From Sulfurivirga caldicuralii (GTDB taxonomy: Bacteria; Pseudomonadota; Gammaproteobacteria; Thiomicrospirales; Thiomicrospiraceae): a DNA stretch of 64,000 nucleotides. The position numbers were made by a program, and so were the translations under genes. The stretch covers positions 124,001 to 188,000 of the forward strand of contig NZ_FSRE01000002.1 in NCBI RefSeq assembly GCF_900141795.1. The letters are read 5' to 3'. Every line of letters starts with the position of its first letter. Position 1 is the first letter of the stretch. The notes beneath the pieces were generated by a model, which had not been told where the DNA came from, ran no database searches, and saw only the letters and a list, made by a program, of their open reading frames with translations. Positions 19,584-62,839 of the stretch are shown here, piece by piece.

Positions 19584-19602
19584 GGGGGTCCCCGACTTTT
19601 TT
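19584..19602 (+). repeat. Short post-stop repeat, copy A
   Basis: Five G, T, four C, then GACTTTTTT, beginning at the base after the stop codon of the DUF2818 gene. The same sequence recurs near 27493 (reversed), 35045, 50940 (reversed, inside lpd) and, less exactly, 57371 (reversed). Its function is unknown. Confidence 0.7.
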
Positions 19603-19611
19603 CAAAGCGCA

Positions 19612-19642
19612 AAAAAAGCCCTGCGGATTTGCAGGGCTTTTT
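19612..19642. terminator. Bidirectional terminator between the nuo operon and lon
   Basis: An 8-bp stem, AGCCCTGC (19617-19624) with GCAGGGCT (19631-19638), is flanked by an A run on the left and a T run on the right. It can therefore end both the plus-strand nuo transcript and the minus-strand lon transcript, whose gene ends at 19679. Confidence 0.88.
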
Positions 19643-19678
19643 CATATCAAAACGGGCATTTTCCCCCTATTTTGAGTC

Positions 19679-22207
19679 TTAGGGCAGCTGACAGCTGCCT
19701 TCTGCAGCCAGACGTGCTTCCTTCTCCAGCCAGGCCTTCAGCGCCGGTGATTTGGCGCGGATGTTAAAGGCCAGGCGTGCCACATCGTCATAATGCCGGG
19801 CAAAGTGCACGTCCAGCCCTTCCTTCAGGTAGTCAGGCAGCTCCTCGAAGTCCTTGCGGTTGTCTTCCGGCAGAATCAGCATTTTGATGCCTGAACGGCG
19901 TGCTGCAATCACCTTTTCACGAATGCCGCCCACAGGCAGCACCTGCCCGGTCAGACTCAGCTCACCGGTCATGGCCAGCTCGTGCTGCACCGGTTCGCCC
20001 CGGGCCAGCGACAGCAGGGCGGTGGCCATGGTGATGCCGGCGCTGGGGCCATCCTTGGGCGTGGCGCCATCGGGTACGTGCAGGTGCACGAAAGCCTTGT
20101 CGAAAAACTCAGGGTCGGCCTTGTACTGCTGCAGGTGCGAGCTGATAAAGCTGTAGGCGATATTGGCCGACTCCTGCATCACCGTACCCAGCTGGCCGGA
20201 CAGCTTGAAGCCGCGGTTGAGCGTATGTACGCGCGTGGCTTCTATGGTGAGGGTGGCGCCCCCCATTGCCGTCCACGCCAGCCCGGTGACCGTACCGATG
20301 AGGCGCGGGTGTTTATCCGCATGAAACCGCGGCTGGCCCAGATAGTCCGGCAGATCGCTCACGTGGATGCGGATCGGCGGTTCGGCACCTTCCACCAGCT
20401 TCAGGGCGGCCTTGCGAATGATGCGCCCCAGCTGTTTCTGCAGGCTGCGCACACCCGCCTCACGGGCATAGCCCTCGATCACATGACGGATGGCCGCTTC
20501 GGTGATCTGCACCGACTGCCTGTCCAGTCCCGCTTCCTTGAGCAGTTTCGGCCACAGGTGATGCTTGGCGATGGCCACCTTCTCTTCGGTGATGTAGCCG
20601 GAGAGGCGAATCACCTCCATGCGGTCAAGCAGCGGTCCCGGAATGGTATCCAGCTGGTTGGCAGTGCAGACGAACAGCACGTTGGACAGGTCAAAACGCA
20701 CGTCCAGATAGTGATCGAGGAAATCGCTGTTCTGCTCCGGGTCCAGCACCTCCAGCAAAGCGGAGGCCGGGTCGCCCTGATAGCTGGCGCCAATCTTGTC
20801 CACCTCGTCCAGCATGATGACCGGGTTGGCGGTGCCCACCGTTTTCAGTGCCTGGATAAACTTGCCGGGCATGGCGCCGATATAGGTACGGCGATGACCC
20901 TTGATTTCAGCCTCATCGCGCATGCCACCCACGCTGAAGCGGTAGAACTTGCGTCCAAGCGCTTCGGCGATGGACTTTCCGATGGAGGTCTTGCCCACAC
21001 CCGGCGGGCCCACCAGCAGGATGATGGAGCCGGACACTTCGCCCTTGAGCTTGCCCACGGCGATGAACTCCAGAATCCGCTGCTTGACGTCTTCGAGGCC
21101 GTCGTGATGACGGTCGAGCACCTTGCGGGCGTGCCCAAGATCGAGATTGTCCTTGCTGTGGATACCCCACGGCAGCTGGGTAATCCAGTCGAGCCAGTTG
21201 CGCGACACCGCGTATTCGGGAGAGTGCGGGTCGAGCATGGCCAGCTTTTCCAGTTCCTCTTCCGCCTTCTGGCGAGCTTCTTCGCTGAGCTGGAGATTTT
21301 CTAGCCGTTCGCGGAACAGGTCCACGTCGGCGCTGCGGTCGTCCTTGACGATGCCCAGCTCCTTCTGGATCTCCTTGAGCTGCTGCTTGAGGAAAAATTC
21401 GCGCTGGTGCTGGCTGAGGTTTTCCTCCACCCGCTCACGGATATTGGACTGGATGCGGGTGACCTCGATTTCGTCCTTGATCAGGCGCAGCACCTTTTCC
21501 ATGCGCTCGCTCAGGTTGAGCGTTTCCAGCACGTCTTGCAACACCGGCCCTTCCGCCGTGGTAAGCGTGGCGGCAAAGTCGGCCAGCTGCGCATGGTTGG
21601 ACGGGCTGAAGCGGTTGAGGAAATAGCGCAGTTCCTCGCTGAATAGTGGGTTGAGCGGCAGCAGCTCGCGGAAAGCGTTCATGATCGCCAAGCCATACGC
21701 CTTCAGCTCGGTTTCTGAGGCGTCGTGAATGTCTTCCGGATAGCTCACCACCGCTTCAAACGGCGGCTTGTCCGTCAGCAGCTGCTCGATCTTGAAGCGG
21801 CGCAGCCCTTCCGCAATCAGCTGAATGTAGTCTTCCTTGACCTTGAGCTCGTGCACGCGGATCAGCGTGCCGATTTTGGAGAACTCCTCGGGTTTGGCCT
21901 TGAGGTTGTCTTCGCTGGTGACGAAGACCACGCCCAGCACATCCTGGCCGGCGACCTTCATCGCCTTGATGGTGTCGAACCACGCCTCCTTGTTCAGAAC
22001 GACAGGCAGCGTCTGCCCCGGGAAGAAGGGACGGTCCTTGATTGGCAGCAGAAAGATGCGCGCAGGCAACGATGCACCGGCAGGGGCGGGGTGCTGCGTA
22101 TCCTCGCTATTTTCGTCGCGCACCAGCTCTCCTTCGTGGACGGTGCCCGATTGCTGTTGTGTGTTGTCTTCTTCAGGGGGAAGTTCAAATCGGATGGTGT
22201 CTTTCAT
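19679..22207 (-). CDS. lon: ATP-dependent Lon protease
   Basis: Cytoplasmic serine protease that removes misfolded and short-lived regulatory proteins. At 842 aa the layout is an N-terminal substrate-binding domain (about residues 45-245), a coiled-coil linker, an AAA+ module with Walker A GPPGVGKTS and Walker B VIMLDEVDKIG, and a C-terminal protease domain with the catalytic Ser in DGPSAGITM and Lys in GIREKVIAA. The start ATG at 22207 has AGGGATCC upstream. A heat-shock-type promoter is visible in front of it. The first 40 residues are rich in acidic and Gln residues and are not conserved in Lon. Confidence 0.97.
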   Translation of the reverse strand: MKDTIRFELPPEEDNTQQQSGTVHEGELVRDENSEDTQHPAPAGASLPARIFLLPIKDRPFFPGQTLPVVLNKEAWFDTIKAMKVAGQDVLGVVFVTSEDNLKAKPEEFSKIGTLIRVHELKVKEDYIQLIAEGLRRFKIEQLLTDKPPFEAVVSYPEDIHDASETELKAYGLAIMNAFRELLPLNPLFSEELRYFLNRFSPSNHAQLADFAATLTTAEGPVLQDVLETLNLSERMEKVLRLIKDEIEVTRIQSNIRERVEENLSQHQREFFLKQQLKEIQKELGIVKDDRSADVDLFRERLENLQLSEEARQKAEEELEKLAMLDPHSPEYAVSRNWLDWITQLPWGIHSKDNLDLGHARKVLDRHHDGLEDVKQRILEFIAVGKLKGEVSGSIILLVGPPGVGKTSIGKSIAEALGRKFYRFSVGGMRDEAEIKGHRRTYIGAMPGKFIQALKTVGTANPVIMLDEVDKIGASYQGDPASALLEVLDPEQNSDFLDHYLDVRFDLSNVLFVCTANQLDTIPGPLLDRMEVIRLSGYITEEKVAIAKHHLWPKLLKEAGLDRQSVQITEAAIRHVIEGYAREAGVRSLQKQLGRIIRKAALKLVEGAEPPIRIHVSDLPDYLGQPRFHADKHPRLIGTVTGLAWTAMGGATLTIEATRVHTLNRGFKLSGQLGTVMQESANIAYSFISSHLQQYKADPEFFDKAFVHLHVPDGATPKDGPSAGITMATALLSLARGEPVQHELAMTGELSLTGQVLPVGGIREKVIAARRSGIKMLILPEDNRKDFEELPDYLKEGLDVHFARHYDDVARLAFNIRAKSPALKAWLEKEARLAAEGSCQLP

Positions 22208-27041: not shown

Positions 27042-27424
27042 GACTGTTGCATACCATGCTGCGCGTCGGGAACCTGGAGCGTTCCATCGACTTTTACACT
27101 AATGTGCTGGGCATGCAGCTGCTGCGCCAGAAGGATTATCCGGACGGGAAGTTTACGCTGGCATTTCTCGGTTATGGTCCGGAAAGTGAAACCTGCGTGC
27201 TGGAACTGACTTACAACTGGGGTGTGGACCATTACGATCTGGGCAACGGCTTTGGCCATATCGCCATCGAGGTGGATGATGTGTATAAAGCGGTGGAGGC
27301 GATCCGCGCACGTGGCGGCAAGATCATCCGCGAAGCCGGTCCCATGAATGCGGGCACCACCATTATTGCCTTTGTGGAAGACCCGGATGGTTATCAGATC
27401 GAATTGCTGGGCCCGCGGAGTTAA
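27038..27424 (+). CDS. gloA: Lactoylglutathione lyase (glyoxalase I)
   Basis: Converts the glutathione hemithioacetal of methylglyoxal to S-lactoylglutathione. The 128-aa protein holds the metal ligands expected from E. coli GloA: His in LLHTMLRV, Glu in VLELTYNWG, His in [10 protein letters not shown] and Glu in YQIELLG. The ATG overlaps the stop of the MFS gene. The frame runs far upstream inside the MFS gene; that part is not coding. Confidence 0.96.
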
Positions 27425-27492
27425 AAAGGCCATTTAAGGCCTCGGGAAGCCCTGTTTCCCCTGACTTTTTGCACGGCGAAAAAAATGCGCCT

Positions 27493-27513
27493 GAAAAAAG
27501 TCGGGGACCCCCT
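27493..27513 (-). repeat. Short post-stop repeat, copy B, with a partial inverted partner
   Basis: On the minus strand this reads AGGGGGTCCCCGACTTTTTTC and starts at the stop codon of the broken nnrS. A related inverted arm, CCCCTGACTTTTT (27458-27470), lies just below it, so the two can pair into a hairpin. The same stretch holds a weak stem GGGAA/TTCCC (27444-27460) that may help end gloA. Confidence 0.65.
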
Positions 27514-28086
27514 ATCCGTAGTGCCCATCCACCCGCGGGCGCAGCCAATATGGCAGATACTGGAGCGTAAACAGGCTCCAACCAAGAATCCACAGGATCA
27601 AGCTGAATTGAATCAGCAGCGTGTACGCGTAGGCCATAAAAAGCGGCCCCAGTACGCGGATAAGGGCGCTGATCAGCCCCATCTGTTTCCATTGGCGGGC
27701 ACGGACGATGGGGTAGGTTATGGCGTCTGCGGCACCCAGCCCGAACAGGCTGTCGAAGATGAAGGCCGGGATGAGGCCGCCATCGACGGCATTGGCAAAG
27801 CGCGCCGTAAGCCAGAGCAGTGCCAGCAGAGCCAATGGCCAGCGGTGCAGGGTCTGCAGGCCGGTCCAGTTGCGGATGGCGGTGAGCAGAAACCCGGTGA
27901 TGACCGCAAAGCCGAAGCCGAACACCATTTCGTGGCCGTGCCACAGGGCCGCATTGGTCCAGGCGCTGTGAAGCTGAGCGGGCAATGTCAGCGCCAGCAG
28001 CCAGGCCAAGCCCAGCAATGCAGCACTAAACTCAGCCAGTAGAAAAAAGGGCGAAACCCCAGATGGAGGAGGGCAAAACGTCCCAC
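27512..28086 (-). pseudogene. nnrS: Broken nnrS-type membrane protein gene
   Basis: NnrS proteins are haem- and copper-binding membrane proteins linked to nitric oxide stress, usually near 400 aa. Here a GTG at 28086 opens VGRFALLHLGFRPFF, a typical NnrS start. The frame is then lost at a run of six T (plus-strand A6, 28043-28048). One extra T would restore RPFFLLAEFSAALLGLAW and join the second frame (LHSAWTNAALWHGHEMVFGFG). The rest keeps WHGHEM, GFLLTAIRNWTG and the C-terminal RPRVDG, but about half of the usual length is missing from the middle. The joined protein would be 191 aa. Both defects suggest a decaying gene. A sequencing error could explain the frameshift but not the internal loss. 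Confidence 0.75.
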
Positions 28087-35044: not shown

Positions 35045-35064
35045 GGGGGGTCCCCGACTTTTTC
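35045..35064 (+). repeat. Short post-stop repeat, copy C
   Basis: GGGGGTCCCCGACTTTTTCA, starting one base past the panC stop. It is the same sequence and position relative to a stop codon as copy A. Confidence 0.7.
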
Positions 35065-35077
35065 AGGGTCGGTTTTT

Positions 35078-35446
35078 TCAGGGCTCGAAAAGTTCTACTG
35101 CGTTGCCGTCCAGATCGCGGAAAAACAGGGCCTTTCGCCCCGATTTGCTGCGCGTGAACGGAATCTGCAGCTGTTCGAGCTGTTCGGCATGCCAGGCAAG
35201 ATCATCCACGCGCAGGGCAAAGTGCATGTCACGCCCGCCGTGCGCCGGTTTTTCAGCTCCACTATAGGGATTAGGCAGCTGCATCAGGTGCAGGCTGCGA
35301 CCATCGTTCAGATCCAGCCAGTAGCCGGGAAAGCCCAGATTGGGGCGGGGCAGGGTGGTCAGTCCCAGCACCTTGTGGTAGAAGGCGTAAGCCTTTTCTG
35401 CATCGCTGACGAGAATGCTGACGTGGTCAAGTCCGATTACGGCCAT
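35078..35446 (-). CDS. VOC family (glyoxalase/dioxygenase-like) protein
   Basis: 122-aa single-unit vicinal-oxygen-chelate protein with two beta-alpha-beta-beta-beta modules. Metal-site-like residues are His in GLDHVSILV, His in MHFALRVDDL and Glu in NAVELFEP. The substrate is unknown; it is not GloA, which is encoded at 27038. Start ATG at 35446; the longer frame to 35629 runs through a dispersed repeat (35473-35740) and is not coding. Confidence 0.85.
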   Translation of the reverse strand: MAVIGLDHVSILVSDAEKAYAFYHKVLGLTTLPRPNLGFPGYWLDLNDGRSLHLMQLPNPYSGAEKPAHGGRDMHFALRVDDLAWHAEQLEQLQIPFTRSKSGRKALFFRDLDGNAVELFEP

Positions 35447-35472
35447 GCTCAAAATGCTCCTGTCATGAAAGT

Positions 35473-35740
35473 GGCACCTCCGCAAAGTTTCTGAACGGTC
35501 GCGACCATGGCGATAGGGTCTAAGGCAAGGTGTGGCGAGTGCGGCACGGTCATTCCACGTAAGCGAGCCACAACGCCGCACTGGGCCAGAGTCGCCCTGG
35601 CCCTTCGGGTTGCGGCGGGATGGCGGCATCAGCTGTGTTGCTCACTTTGGATTTGGACTCTCCAACCCTGCGGCTCGTGCCTGGTATCTGCCGTCATCGC
35701 ACCGCAACGCAAGCGCATTCAGAAACCTTGCGCAGCTGCC
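35473..35740 (+). repeat. MITE-like inverted-terminal-repeat element, copy 1 (268 bp)
   Basis: Non-coding element filling most of the 341-bp gap between the divergent VOC and dapD genes. The left end reads GGCACCTCCGCAAAGTTTC and the right end, reverse complemented, GGCAGCTGCGCAAGGTTTC; both go on TGAA, agreeing over most of 23 bp. Internal blocks (CTGAACGGTCGCGAC, GGGTTGCGGCGGGAT, AAGCGCATTCAGA-like) recur in the copies at 57115 and 62527. Reading frames through it are spurious. It encodes no transposase. Confidence 0.8.
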
Positions 35741-35747
35741 TTATAAT
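35719..35747 (+). promoter_or_regulatory. Possible dapD promoter at the end of the repeat element
   Basis: A perfect TATAAT (35742-35747) starts 2 bp after the right end of the repeat. Any -35 box must lie inside the repeat: TCAGAA at 35719-35724 gives a 17-bp spacer but is a poor match. The dapD ATG is 41 bp downstream. Confidence 0.4.
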
Positions 35748-50611: not shown

Positions 50612-52384
50612 ATGAGCAAGATTGTGGATATTGTCCTGCCAGATATTGGTGATTTTGACGCCGTTGATGTGATTGAAGTGCTGGTTCAGCCCGGCGACAC
50701 CGTTGAAGTGGATGACTCGCTGATTACGCTGGAGTCCGACAAGGCCACCATGGAAGTGCCGTCGCCCCATGCCGGTGAAATTGTCGAGCTCACCGTCAAG
50801 GAAGGCGACAAGGTCTCCACCGGCGATGTGATCGGCAAAATGGCCCTGGCAGACAGCGAAACTGTTGAAAACAGCGAAAAAATGCCTGAAACCGCTGAAG
50901 AGCCCGCAGCGGCAGCGGCTGCCGAAAAAGCGGCCGCGCAAAAAGTCGGGGACCCCCTCCCTGAAGCGGATCAGCATGCCGAAGTGCTGGTGCTGGGCGG
51001 TGGGCCAGGTGGCTATACCGCCGCCTTCCGCGCCGCGGATCTGGGCAAGAAAGTGGTGCTGGTGGAGCGTTACCCGGTCATTGGTGGGGTGTGCCTCAAT
51101 GTGGGCTGCATTCCCTCCAAAGCGCTGCTGCACATGTCCGTGATTTTGAACGAAACCCGCGAACTGGCGGATCACGGCCTCAAGTTCGCCGAGCCGGAAA
51201 TCGATCTGGACAAGCTGCGCGACTACAAGAACGGGGTGATCAAAAAGCTCACTGGCGGACTGGCTGCACTGGCCAAGCAGCGCAAGGTGGACGTGGTGCA
51301 GGGCTACGGCCGTTTCACCAGTCCGCATACCGTCGAAGTCGAGCTGGCGGATGGTGGCACCAAGACCATTTCGTTTGACAATGCCATCATTGCCGCAGGC
51401 TCCCAGCCCATCAAGCTGCCGTTTATCCCCCACGACGACCCGCGGGTGATGGACTCCACCGATGCGCTGGAGCTGCCCGAGGTGCCCAAGCGCATGCTGG
51501 TGATCGGCGGCGGCATTATCGGCTTGGAAATGGCGCAGGTGTATGACAGCTTGGGTGCCAAGATCACCATTGTGGAGCTGGGCGACACCATTATTCCCGG
51601 TGCCGACAAGGATCTGACCAAGCCGCTGCTCAAGCGCATCAAGAAGCGCTACGAAAATATCTACCTCAATGCCAAGGTGACCAATGTGGAGGCCAAGCCG
51701 GAAGGCCTTGAAGTGACCTTCGAAGGCAAGAATGTGCCGCAGAAGGATACCTTTGACCGCATTCTGGTGGCGGTGGGACGCGCGCCTAATGGTCTCAGGA
51801 TCGGTGCCGAAAAGGCGGGTGTGGCCGTGGACGAACGCGGCTTTATCGCTGTGGACGAGCGCCAGCGCACCAATGTGCCGCACATTTACGCCATTGGCGA
51901 TATCGTCGGGCAGCCCATGCTGGCCCACAAGGCAGTGCACGAAGGCAAGGTGGCGGCGGAGGTCATCTGTGGCTTGCCGTCCGCCTTTACCCCCATGGGG
52001 ATTCCGTCCGTGGCCTATACCGATCCGGAAGTGGCTTGGGCGGGCAAGACCGAAGAGGAGCTCAAGGCCGAGGGCGTGGAATACGAAAAGGGCGTGTTCC
52101 CCTGGGCGGCGTCCGGTCGCAGCCTGAGTCTGGGCCGTGACGAGGGTATGACCAAGGCGCTGTTCGATGCCAAGACCCATCGCATTCTGGGCTGTGGAAT
52201 CGTCGGCCCCAATGCGGGCGAGCTGATTGCCGAAGCCATGCTGGCCATCGAAATGGGTGCGGACATGCAGGACATTGGGCTCACCATCCATCCGCACCCG
52301 ACACTGTCGGAAACCTTTGCGTTTGCAGCCGAGATGGCTGAAGGCACCATCACCGACCTGATCGCGCCGAAAAAGCGCAAGTAA
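50612..52384 (+). CDS. lpd: Dihydrolipoamide dehydrogenase with N-terminal lipoyl domain
   Basis: FAD enzyme (E3) reoxidising dihydrolipoyl groups with NAD. At 590 aa it is longer than ordinary Lpd because residues 1-80 form a lipoyl domain (Lys44 in ESDKATME), joined by an Ala/Glu-rich linker (about 82-122) to the enzyme. Then come VLGGGPGGYTAAFRAAD (FAD), GGVCLNVGCIPSK (redox Cys161 and Cys166), VIGGGIIGLEMAQ (NAD) and the C-terminal HPHPTLSE. Lipoyl-Lpd fusions are known in beta- and gammaproteobacteria. The linker contains a translated copy of the short dispersed repeat (50940-50958). Confidence 0.96.
   Translation: MSKIVDIVLPDIGDFDAVDVIEVLVQPGDTVEVDDSLITLESDKATMEVPSPHAGEIVELTVKEGDKVSTGDVIGKMALADSETVENSEKMPETAEEPAAAAAAEKAAAQKVGDPLPEADQHAEVLVLGGGPGGYTAAFRAADLGKKVVLVERYPVIGGVCLNVGCIPSKALLHMSVILNETRELADHGLKFAEPEIDLDKLRDYKNGVIKKLTGGLAALAKQRKVDVVQGYGRFTSPHTVEVELADGGTKTISFDNAIIAAGSQPIKLPFIPHDDPRVMDSTDALELPEVPKRMLVIGGGIIGLEMAQVYDSLGAKITIVELGDTIIPGADKDLTKPLLKRIKKRYENIYLNAKVTNVEAKPEGLEVTFEGKNVPQKDTFDRILVAVGRAPNGLRIGAEKAGVAVDERGFIAVDERQRTNVPHIYAIGDIVGQPMLAHKAVHEGKVAAEVICGLPSAFTPMGIPSVAYTDPEVAWAGKTEEELKAEGVEYEKGVFPWAASGRSLSLGRDEGMTKALFDAKTHRILGCGIVGPNAGELIAEAMLAIEMGADMQDIGLTIHPHPTLSETFAFAAEMAEGTITDLIAPKKRK
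50940..50958 (-). repeat. Short repeat, copy D, inside the lpd linker
   Basis: AAAAAGTCGGGGACCCCCT on the plus strand, the reverse of copies A and C, identical over 19 bases to copy B. It is read in frame as KVGDPL between the lipoyl and FAD domains of Lpd. Confidence 0.65.
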
Positions 52385-55759: not shown

Positions 55760-57115
55760 ATGAGAATCCATATTTTAGGCGTTGGCGGCACCTTTATGGG
55801 CGGGCTGGCACAGATTTTACAGGGGCTTGGACATCGGGTCACCGGCTCGGATGGCCCGCTGTATCCGCCCATGAGCGACCAGCTAGCCCAGGCTGGTATC
55901 GAGGTGTTCGGCTACGGAGAGCATGGCTGGATGTCGCCGGAACCGGATGTGGTGGTTATCGGCAACGCCTTGTCGCGTGGGCATGTGGATGTGGAAGCCG
56001 TGCTGAACCGCGGCTTGCGTTACACCTCGGGGCCGCAAATACTCAGCGAACTGCTGCTGCAGGATCGCTGGGTGGTGGGCATCGCCGGCACCCATGGCAA
56101 GACCACCACCTCCAGCATGGTAGCGTGGATTCTGGAATATGCGGGGTTGGCGCCCGGTTTCCTGATTGGCGGCGTACCGGAGAACTTCGGCCGATCCGCT
56201 CAGGTGGGGCAGGCGCCCTTTTTCGTGATCGAGGCGGATGAATACGACACCGCCTTTTTCGACAAGCGCAGCAAGTTCGTGCACTATCGTCCGCGCACCT
56301 GTGTCATCAACAATCTCGAGTTTGACCACGCCGATATCTTTGCGGATCTGCAGGCCATCCAGTGGCAGTTTCATCAACTGGTGCGTACCGTGCCGGGCAA
56401 TGGCCTGATTATTACGCCAGCCAATGAACCGGCCATAGACGAGACGCTGGCCATGGGGTGCTGGACGCCGGTGGTGCGCTGGGACGAGCGTCTGCAGGTG
56501 ATGCCGCTGGCTGAGGCAGGGTGGGAATTTGCGGTGCTGGATCGAGGCCAACAGGTCGGTGTGGTGCGCTGGCCATTGACCGGGGAACATAATCTCGCCA
56601 ATGCGGCCGCGGCGCTGCTGGCGGCTGAACATGCGGGCGTGCCACTGCCACTGGGGGTAGAAGCGCTGAACCACTTCAAGGGGGTGCGTCGGCGTCAGAC
56701 GCAGGTGGGCGAGACGGCAGGCGTGCGTATCATCGATGACTTTGCCCACCACCCCACCGCCATTGCCACCACGCTGGCGGGGCTTAAGGCGACGTTGCAG
56801 CCCGGCCAGCGCCTGCTGGCGGTGTTCGAGCCACGTTCCAATACCATGCGCATGGGTGTGCATGCAGCCCGCCTGCCCGAGGCCTTTGCCCCGGCGGATG
56901 CGGTATTTGCCTTTATCGACCCGGCCTGGGCCTGGCAGCTGCCGCCCTTTGCCGTGCCGCTTGCGACCGCGCCGGATTACGACACGCTGCTTAAGCAGCT
57001 GCTGGACGCCGTGCAGGTCGGTGATGTGGTGGTTTTCATGTCCAATGGGGCGTTTGGCGGCCTGCAGCAGGCCTTTTTGCAGGCGCTGCGCGAACGGGAA
57101 AAAAGCAAAGGATAG
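55760..57115 (+). CDS. mpl: UDP-N-acetylmuramate:L-alanyl-gamma-D-glutamyl-meso-diaminopimelate ligase
   Basis: Murein-recycling ligase that reattaches the recovered tripeptide to UDP-MurNAc. At 451 aa it resembles MurC: HILGVGGTFMGGLAQ (Rossmann, GTFMG as in Mpl), the ATP loop GIAGTHGKTTTSSM, VIEADEYDTAFFDKRSKFVHY and FAHHPTAI. It works in the same pathway as AmpD at 43488. Repeat element copy 2 begins at the last base of its stop codon. Confidence 0.95.
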   Translation: MRIHILGVGGTFMGGLAQILQGLGHRVTGSDGPLYPPMSDQLAQAGIEVFGYGEHGWMSPEPDVVVIGNALSRGHVDVEAVLNRGLRYTSGPQILSELLLQDRWVVGIAGTHGKTTTSSMVAWILEYAGLAPGFLIGGVPENFGRSAQVGQAPFFVIEADEYDTAFFDKRSKFVHYRPRTCVINNLEFDHADIFADLQAIQWQFHQLVRTVPGNGLIITPANEPAIDETLAMGCWTPVVRWDERLQVMPLAEAGWEFAVLDRGQQVGVVRWPLTGEHNLANAAAALLAAEHAGVPLPLGVEALNHFKGVRRRQTQVGETAGVRIIDDFAHHPTAIATTLAGLKATLQPGQRLLAVFEPRSNTMRMGVHAARLPEAFAPADAVFAFIDPAWAWQLPPFAVPLATAPDYDTLLKQLLDAVQVGDVVVFMSNGAFGGLQQAFLQALREREKSKG

Positions 57116-57367
57116 GCACCCCCGCAAAGCCTCTGAATGATCGCGACAGTGGCGATTATGGTTCAAGGCGAGGCGTGGTGAGCGAAGCATGATGAGTCCA
57201 TGTGAGCGAAGCACAACGCTGCATTGCACCAAAATCGTCCTGTCCCTCCGGGTTGCGACGGGACGGCAAGATTTCAGTGAAGCGCCTTTAGACGACATTC
57301 TGATCAAGAGTGCTTGTCGCGGACAAACCAGCAATGCGAGTGCATTCAGAGGTTTTGTGGGGGTGCC
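57115..57367 (+). repeat. MITE-like inverted-terminal-repeat element, copy 2 (253 bp)
   Basis: Fills the gap between the converging mpl and epmC genes. Left end GGCACCCCCGCAAAGCCTC and right end reverse complement GGCACCCCCACAAAACCTC, both continuing TGAA, match at 21 of 23 positions. It shares internal blocks with copies 1 and 3 (TCGCGAC, GGTTGCGACGGGA, GTGCATTCAGAG) but is more diverged in the middle. No coding content is seen. Confidence 0.82.
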
Positions 57368-57370
57368 TGT

Positions 57371-62495: not shown

Positions 62496-62526
62496 GGCAT
62501 CCCTCGTGAATTCAAATGCAGTTGTT

Positions 62527-62796
62527 GGCATCTTCACAAAGCCTCTGAACGGTCGCGACAGTGGGGATTCCGGTTCAAGACAAGGCGCACCGAACGTGGC
62601 ATGGTCATTCCATGCGAGTAAGGTGCAACGCTGCTTTGGGCCGGAATCGCCCTGTCCCTGTGGGTTGCGGCGGGATAGCGGCATCTTCTATGTTGCGCGT
62701 CTTGCCTTTGGCGCCCCAAAGGCTGCGCCGTGCGCCTTGAATCTGCCACCATCGCGTCAGCAACGCGAGCGCATTCAGAGTCTTTGCGAAGATGCC
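62527..62796 (+). repeat. MITE-like inverted-terminal-repeat element, copy 3 (270 bp)
   Basis: Occupies most of the 387-bp gap between folD (minus) and tRNA-Pro (plus). Left end GGCATCTTCACAAAGCCTC and right end reverse complement GGCATCTTCGCAAAGACTC, both continuing TGAA, agree at 21 of 23 positions. It is similar to copy 1 along its length. Frames through copies 1 and 3 give the same spurious peptide start (SRRNP, then GQGDSGP), showing the same orientation. No clear target-site duplication is visible. Confidence 0.85.
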
Positions 62797-62839
62797 TATT
62801 ATACAGGCAAGCGCATGACGGTTTTTTTGCGGCGTCAGC

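Follow-up and report, generated by a model that had tools for sequence, protein, structure and literature searches.

The repeat and its neighbouring genes

The window, by which we mean the whole stretch of 64,000 nucleotides that was analysed, contains four copies of a short repeat within one mismatch of a 19-mer (19584-19602, + strand; 27512-27494, - strand; 35046-35064, + strand; 50957-50939, - strand; the last base differs in the latter two), whereas 100 dinucleotide shuffles give 0 matches. Pfam backs the names that an earlier note on this DNA had given to the neighbouring genes, namely DUF2818, NnrS (partial), PanC, EpmC and the lipoyl-bearing Lpd. Copies had been reported at the stop codons of DUF2818, the nnrS fragment and panC, and all three are found there; the further copy reported in lpd is also present, antisense to that gene. 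The cores are listed below, G001 and G003 denoting two genomes of the same genus whose versions of the repeat (dialects) are described further on.

19584..19601, + strand: core copy 1, exact 18-mer, 0 nt past the DUF2818 stop codon
27495..27512, - strand: core copy 2, exact 18-mer, overlapping the last stop-codon base of the nnrS fragment; G003 dialect at the syntenic place
35046..35063, + strand: core copy 3, exact 18-mer, 1 nt past the panC stop codon; G001 dialect at the syntenic place
50940..50957, - strand: core copy 4, exact 18-mer, antisense in lpd, within the linker that joins the lipoyl and redox domains

A variant at epmC (57386-57369, - strand), which the earlier note had grouped with these, matches 15 of 18 bases and keeps an 11-base block, but it lacks the second T tract and continues into a different repeat, and we do not count it as a copy. 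The NnrS fragment itself (27512-28018, - strand), with the motif copy at its stop, has its best-matching stretch between positions 23 and 136 of the 371-position profile. The window also contains a different dispersed repeat, ~275 nt long and not tied to the 17-mer described below, at positions 35470-35745, 57115-57368 and 62526-62797; it has 11 BLAST matches in 455 kb including the query, the others being 59-78% identical.

Abundance and sharpness of the core

The genome analysed (G000) comprises 1,673,283 bases in 7 contigs, and mismatches were counted in a 455-kb sample consisting of contig C5 and the window. The earlier note had taken the repeat to be more widely distributed, and the count bears this out: the 17-mer GGGGTCCCCGACTTTTT has 136 exact copies in its own 1.67-Mb genome (61 + 75 by strand), a core density of ~81 per Mb with enrichment in intergenic space, and the exact 18-mer has 129 (57 + 72 by strand), compared with 0 matches in that genome for the reversed control pattern of the 17-mer. 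The 17-mer is thus over-represented on both strands far beyond chance, as is expected of the uptake sequences known as DUS and USS. The copies are also sharply defined. In the 455 kb, 37 places match the 18-mer exactly, 5 with a single mismatch, 0 with two and 3 with three, while the reversed 18-mer gives 0, 0, 0 and 1 matches in the same classes; four of the five single-mismatch copies differ at the first base only, so that 41 of the 42 copies are identical over 17 bases. A three-mismatch relative of the motif at C5:386552 (- strand) retains the second T tract and could be a copy that has decayed.

None of 56 related genomes, including three of the same genus, contains an exact copy of the 17-mer, and a viral collection contains no exact 18-mer. 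A 20-mer spanning part of the copies gave two single matches, both in unrelated organisms, in a species collection from which the source genome was possibly left out.

Placement relative to genes and spacing

Genes in the 455 kb were called with a simple codon-model caller, and the 42 copies there were scored for placement. Intergenic space holds 24 copies (3.8 expected), genes hold 17 and a single copy overlaps a stop codon; a repeat run of the gene caller gave 25 and 17 instead. Ten intergenic copies begin 0-12 nt past a stop codon in the orientation of the gene, which together with the stop-overlapping copy places 11 of 42 at stop codons, and convergent gene pairs flank 12 of the 24 intergenic copies (p = 3e-4). 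The suggestion that the repeat follows stop codons therefore stands for these 11 copies, within a marked intergenic excess, and does not extend to the 17 inside genes. Of the latter, 15 are antisense (p = 0.002) and 2 are sense. Because 13 of the 15 antisense copies use the KVGDP frame, protein tolerance can explain the antisense bias.

The spacing sample comprised 97 of 100 listed exact places (three on C3 were dropped) and the five one-mismatch copies on C5, with C7 partly covered. The resulting 98 gaps are even, with a mean of 12.3 kb and a CV of 0.66, compared with 0.98 in simulations. Gaps shorter than 5 kb number 9 of 98 against 32 expected, and 0 of 20,000 simulations were equally even. 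Neighbouring copies have the same orientation in 44 of 98 pairs.

The largest motif-free stretch among the listed places, G000:C7:196310-259928 (63.6 kb), has no copy with up to three mismatches inside it. It carries RuBisCO, DabA, rpoBC and ribosomal-protein genes and no obvious prophage, and the next copy begins immediately at the stop codon that closes the final co-directional gene.

Dialects in sister species

Dialect words were defined as words over-represented in stretches of the same-genus genomes. These are ACGGGGTCTCCCCCATTTTTGC in G001 and GGGGTCCCCC in G003, the latter with 7 copies in 214 kb. The G001 dialect ACGGGGTCTCCCC has 176 copies in G001 and 43 in G002, and 0 in both the source genome and G003; among 31 further genomes, one has a single copy. 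The words of the source genome, of G001/G002 and of G003 thus differ from one another, forming lineage-specific dialects such as characterize DUS and USS.

The dialects occupy corresponding places. Through interspecies alignments that are only about 64-79% identical, 53 sites of the source genome were projected and the relative's word was sought within 150 nt, two sites being counted in both genomes. The G001 word was found at 10 of the 16 sites projectable onto G001 (202/4351 at random), and the G003 word at 5 of the 11 projectable onto G003 (69/3861 at random). In total the relative's dialect lies at the syntenic place in 15 of 27 projections, with the same orientation in 15 of 15, and no relative's motif lies within 150 nt in the remaining 12 of 27 (G001 and G003 combined). 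The lpd linker illustrates the exchange: G001 has its own dialect there, G002 a one-base variant of that dialect and G003 a variant of the G003 word. Of 13 pairs aligned with small gaps, 5 of which lack the relative's motif, none shows a clean insertion of element length; the net length difference is at most 20 nt in 10 of 13 (range -66 to +52), and identity is 0.51-0.67.

In G001 and G002 the dialect also forms tandem clusters of up to four copies, mostly ~83-211 nt apart (e.g. G001:C62:54083-54395), unlike the source genome, in which copies are almost all single.

A helically phased A/T arm

Alignment of 59 copies of the source genome on the core places A/T peaks at about +13.5, +29, +43, +55, +65, +76, +86, +96, +107, +116 and +126, and the downstream arm has a period of 10.25-10.5 bp over about 110 bp. 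Between +36 and +100 its power reaches 0.712, which is 8 times the 99% level obtained by permutation (0.089). In G001 (37 copies) the power is 1.227 compared with 0.142, and the peaks coincide with those of the source genome from +58 on, at an offset of 3-4 bases, whereas closer to the core the two genomes differ; the 8 copies of G003 are too few for an arm test. Upstream of the core the periodic signal is small (0.031 in the source genome and 0.058 in G001, with permutation fractions of 0.027 and 0.010), and the coherence of phase is 0.82 downstream compared with 0.37 upstream. The phase over +50..+125 is correct in 42 of 42 copies, among them all 17 genic ones, a count that is flattered by the derivation of the reference phase from the same 42 copies; 31 of the 42 exceed the random 95th percentile. 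The putative arms of the window copies, each given the extent of the average over copies, are:

19602..19715, + strand: putative arm of copy 1
27381..27494, - strand: putative arm of copy 2
35064..35177, + strand: putative arm of copy 3
50826..50939, - strand: putative arm of copy 4

Helical phase is also seen between copies. In G001 and G002, 50 spacings of same-orientation tandem copies fit 10.3-bp steps (R 0.68), and with the 100-106 nt bin removed the fit is 0.57, narrowly above the null 99.9% level of 0.562. The phased arm and the species dialects are findings beyond the first reading of this DNA.

A palindrome in other genera of the family

Among 32 genomes from other genera of the family, 16 (e.g. 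G006, G008, G012 and G035) carry 93 to 688 copies of the 12-bp palindrome ACCAGGCCTGGT and the other 16 carry 0 to 25, compared with 0 or 1 in 21 genomes of other families. The places of the palindrome fall in genes in 25 of 27 cases in G008, 9 of 18 in G006 and 10 of 20 in G009. Arms are present on both sides in G006 (0.316 compared with 0.089, the 30 rows representing ~15 places read on both strands), and G008 and G009 do not reach the permutation level. A common origin of the palindrome and the motif described here is unsupported, because the palindrome is absent from the lpd linker in the seven genomes examined. Stretches of about 75-80 kb from G004 and from G005 yielded no comparably strong word.

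A possible self-DNA tag

Our preferred reading, to which we give a probability of roughly 0.45 on the sequence evidence, is that the repeat forms the core of a ~140-bp species-specific self-DNA tag with an extended bendable arm, most likely a DNA uptake sequence in a gammaproteobacterium capable of natural transformation. The sharpness of the copies and their concerted replacement between species favour a driving process such as biased uptake, which the available portions of PMC1626085 and PMC3630211 describe for USS and DUS. In such a system a surface receptor of a type IV pilus/ComEC uptake machine would recognise the core, and bending of the adjoining DNA along the phased arm would allow a loop to be pulled in. 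Recurrent uptake and recombination of tagged self DNA would keep the copies alike, while a changed receptor preference would shift them together. On this view, copies would lie next to stop codons and in convergent intergenic regions only because core and arm find free room there.

The source genome encodes the competence machinery that this reading calls for, with ComEC (801 aa), DprA and three T2SSE ATPases, called PilB- and PilT/PilU-like here on the basis of their size and adjacency. PF03772 is present in G003 and in 18 of 18 other family genomes examined, and was not found in G001 and G002; the ComEC pieces of G001 lie on two contigs, consistent with an assembly gap that divides the gene. 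No PilB-like T2SSE scored above the cut-off in G001-G003. Prepilin-like proteins occur in the source and sister genomes and are at most candidate receptors.

The missing PF03772 and PilB-like matches in the sister genomes count against an uptake tag, as do the 12 projections without a relative's motif. The density is low, and it is not obvious how the tandem copies of G001 and G002, set in 10.3-bp steps, would improve uptake. The copies are, moreover, much sharper than those of DUS, and the available portions of PMC1626085 and PMC3630211 make no mention of an arm with some ten phased turns in USS or DUS.

The source genome also encodes two RuBisCO large chains and DabA, with carboxysome-like neighbours recognised by eye, features that together with the small genomes suggest the Thiomicrospira group. 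The literature searches returned no paper joining 'Thiomicrospira' with 'DNA uptake sequence', and none on such a repeat in the group among the matches listed.

Alternative explanations

The main rival, which we consider possible, is a sequence-specific wrapping site, where DNA gyrase or a nucleoid protein would bind the core and wrap the phased arm, the sites setting out evenly spaced topological or nucleoid domains of ~12 kb. Wrapping of DNA at gyrase sites is described in the available portions of PMC6379681, PMC10052514 and PMC12393610, and the first two give 10.75-bp periodic arms for the E. coli gyrase motif and a requirement for the right arm in the Mu SGS. The helically phased arm expected of a strong gyrase site is present here, and the length of this arm, together with the phased tandem copies of the sister species, argue for wrapping as at gyrase sites. 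Also in its favour are the strength of the arm in both genomes, its correct phase in every copy including those in genes, the even spacing and the bias towards convergent genes. When phage Mu is scanned with the arm profile, the Mu gyrase site ranks 4, 8 and 14 of 73,228 in three versions that start the profile at +36. In three others that start it at +18 the ranks are only 58, 165 and 257 of 73,192, which counts against wrapping, and the comparison as a whole is suggestive at most. The degeneracy of the gyrase motif also speaks against wrapping, since the core described here is invariant within each genome and replaced whole between species, as does the palindrome of the other genera, which is without an arm in G008 and has no significant arm in G009. 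The broader proposition, that these are chromosome-wide, evenly spaced wrapping elements of invariant core and ten-turn arm, with cores replaced in concert at fixed places between sister species and co-evolving quickly with their reader, strikes us as rather unlikely.

Spread through copying, as a REP-like repeat or some other small mobile element, is improbable, although the many identical copies, the intergenic bias and the tandem clusters of G001 and G002 are what such an element would leave. The earlier note had linked similar motifs to REP-associated transposases, but Y1_Tnp (PF01797) is found in 0 of the 4 genus genomes (G000-G003), whereas with the same search 17 of 35 genomes, as well as the controls, are positive. 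Syntenic places in the sister species hold another dialect, the 13 aligned pairs show no clean element-length insertion (one differs by +52 nt), and the genic copies do not agree with the extragenic position of REP elements. That the repeat serves as a compact terminator of transcription or marks the mRNA 3' end, as also put forward in the earlier note, is very improbable, for although the copies at stop codons, the T tracts, the rarity of sense copies in genes and a terminator-like hairpin overlapped by the panC copy (35054-35072; only one of the four window copies) would suit it, the genic copies are mostly antisense and the arm is kept, the RNA folds of the window copies are unremarkable against shuffles (z 1.55, 0.44, -1.61 and -0.24) with no convincing stable hairpin before a U run, and a separate, ordinary-looking terminator-like hairpin (19618-19642, by reading) follows the DUF2818 copy.

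What probability remains beyond the uptake, wrapping, mobile-element and terminator readings is an unassigned rest. Under either the uptake or the wrapping reading, the phased arm offers a quantitative property open to checking. Supercoil or nucleoid domains could be studied at the copies, as evenly spaced and sequence-defined natural sites, if the repeat is a wrapping site; as an uptake tag, it would make dialect shifts testable at syntenic sites.

Comparison with known systems

Like the Mu SGS and the E. coli gyrase motif, the repeat has a helically phased bendable arm beside a core, and the Mu cut site (17879) lies just past a gene end (17859), comparable to the copies at stop codons. The gyrase motif, however, is degenerate and symmetrical, whereas the core described here is invariant and has dialects. 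With REP/BIME elements and their RAYT the repeat shares a GC-rich, partly palindromic sequence, an intergenic bias and tandem arrangement in sister species; it differs in the lack of a Y1 transposase in the genus genomes, in its genic copies and in having no notable hairpin.

As a putative uptake tag, the repeat is best set beside the two families of uptake sequences. The neisserial DUS itself was rejected, there being only 4 copies of GCCGTCTGAA in 455 kb and no DUS-like density. Neisseriaceae DUS have species dialects, according to the available portion of PMC3630211, and resemble the repeat as dialects of a very abundant, sharp sequence. The repeat is the sharper, with a perfect to single-mismatch ratio of 37:5, compared with 1:1.15 and 1:1.45 for perfect against single-mutant copies in two Neisseria genomes, as given in that portion; its core also lacks CTG, and it has an arm. 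The USS of Pasteurellaceae, which the available portion of PMC1626085 describes as a core with AT-rich segments, with subclade dialects and not arising as insertions, is similar in its sharp core beside AT-rich segments, its lineage dialects and its genic and intergenic positions, and possibly in its origin other than by insertion. It differs in core sequence and core length (17 bp here compared with 9) and in having two AT segments in place of about ten phased turns, and the repeat, at the density given above, is sharper. Since by reading neither the CTG core of DUS nor the GCGGT core of USS is present in the cores of the source genome and G001, the repeat belongs to neither known family, even if it is functionally alike. 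If it is an uptake tag, it would represent a further lineage beside the Pasteurellaceae and Neisseriaceae, the families discussed in the cited papers, with dialects within one genus.
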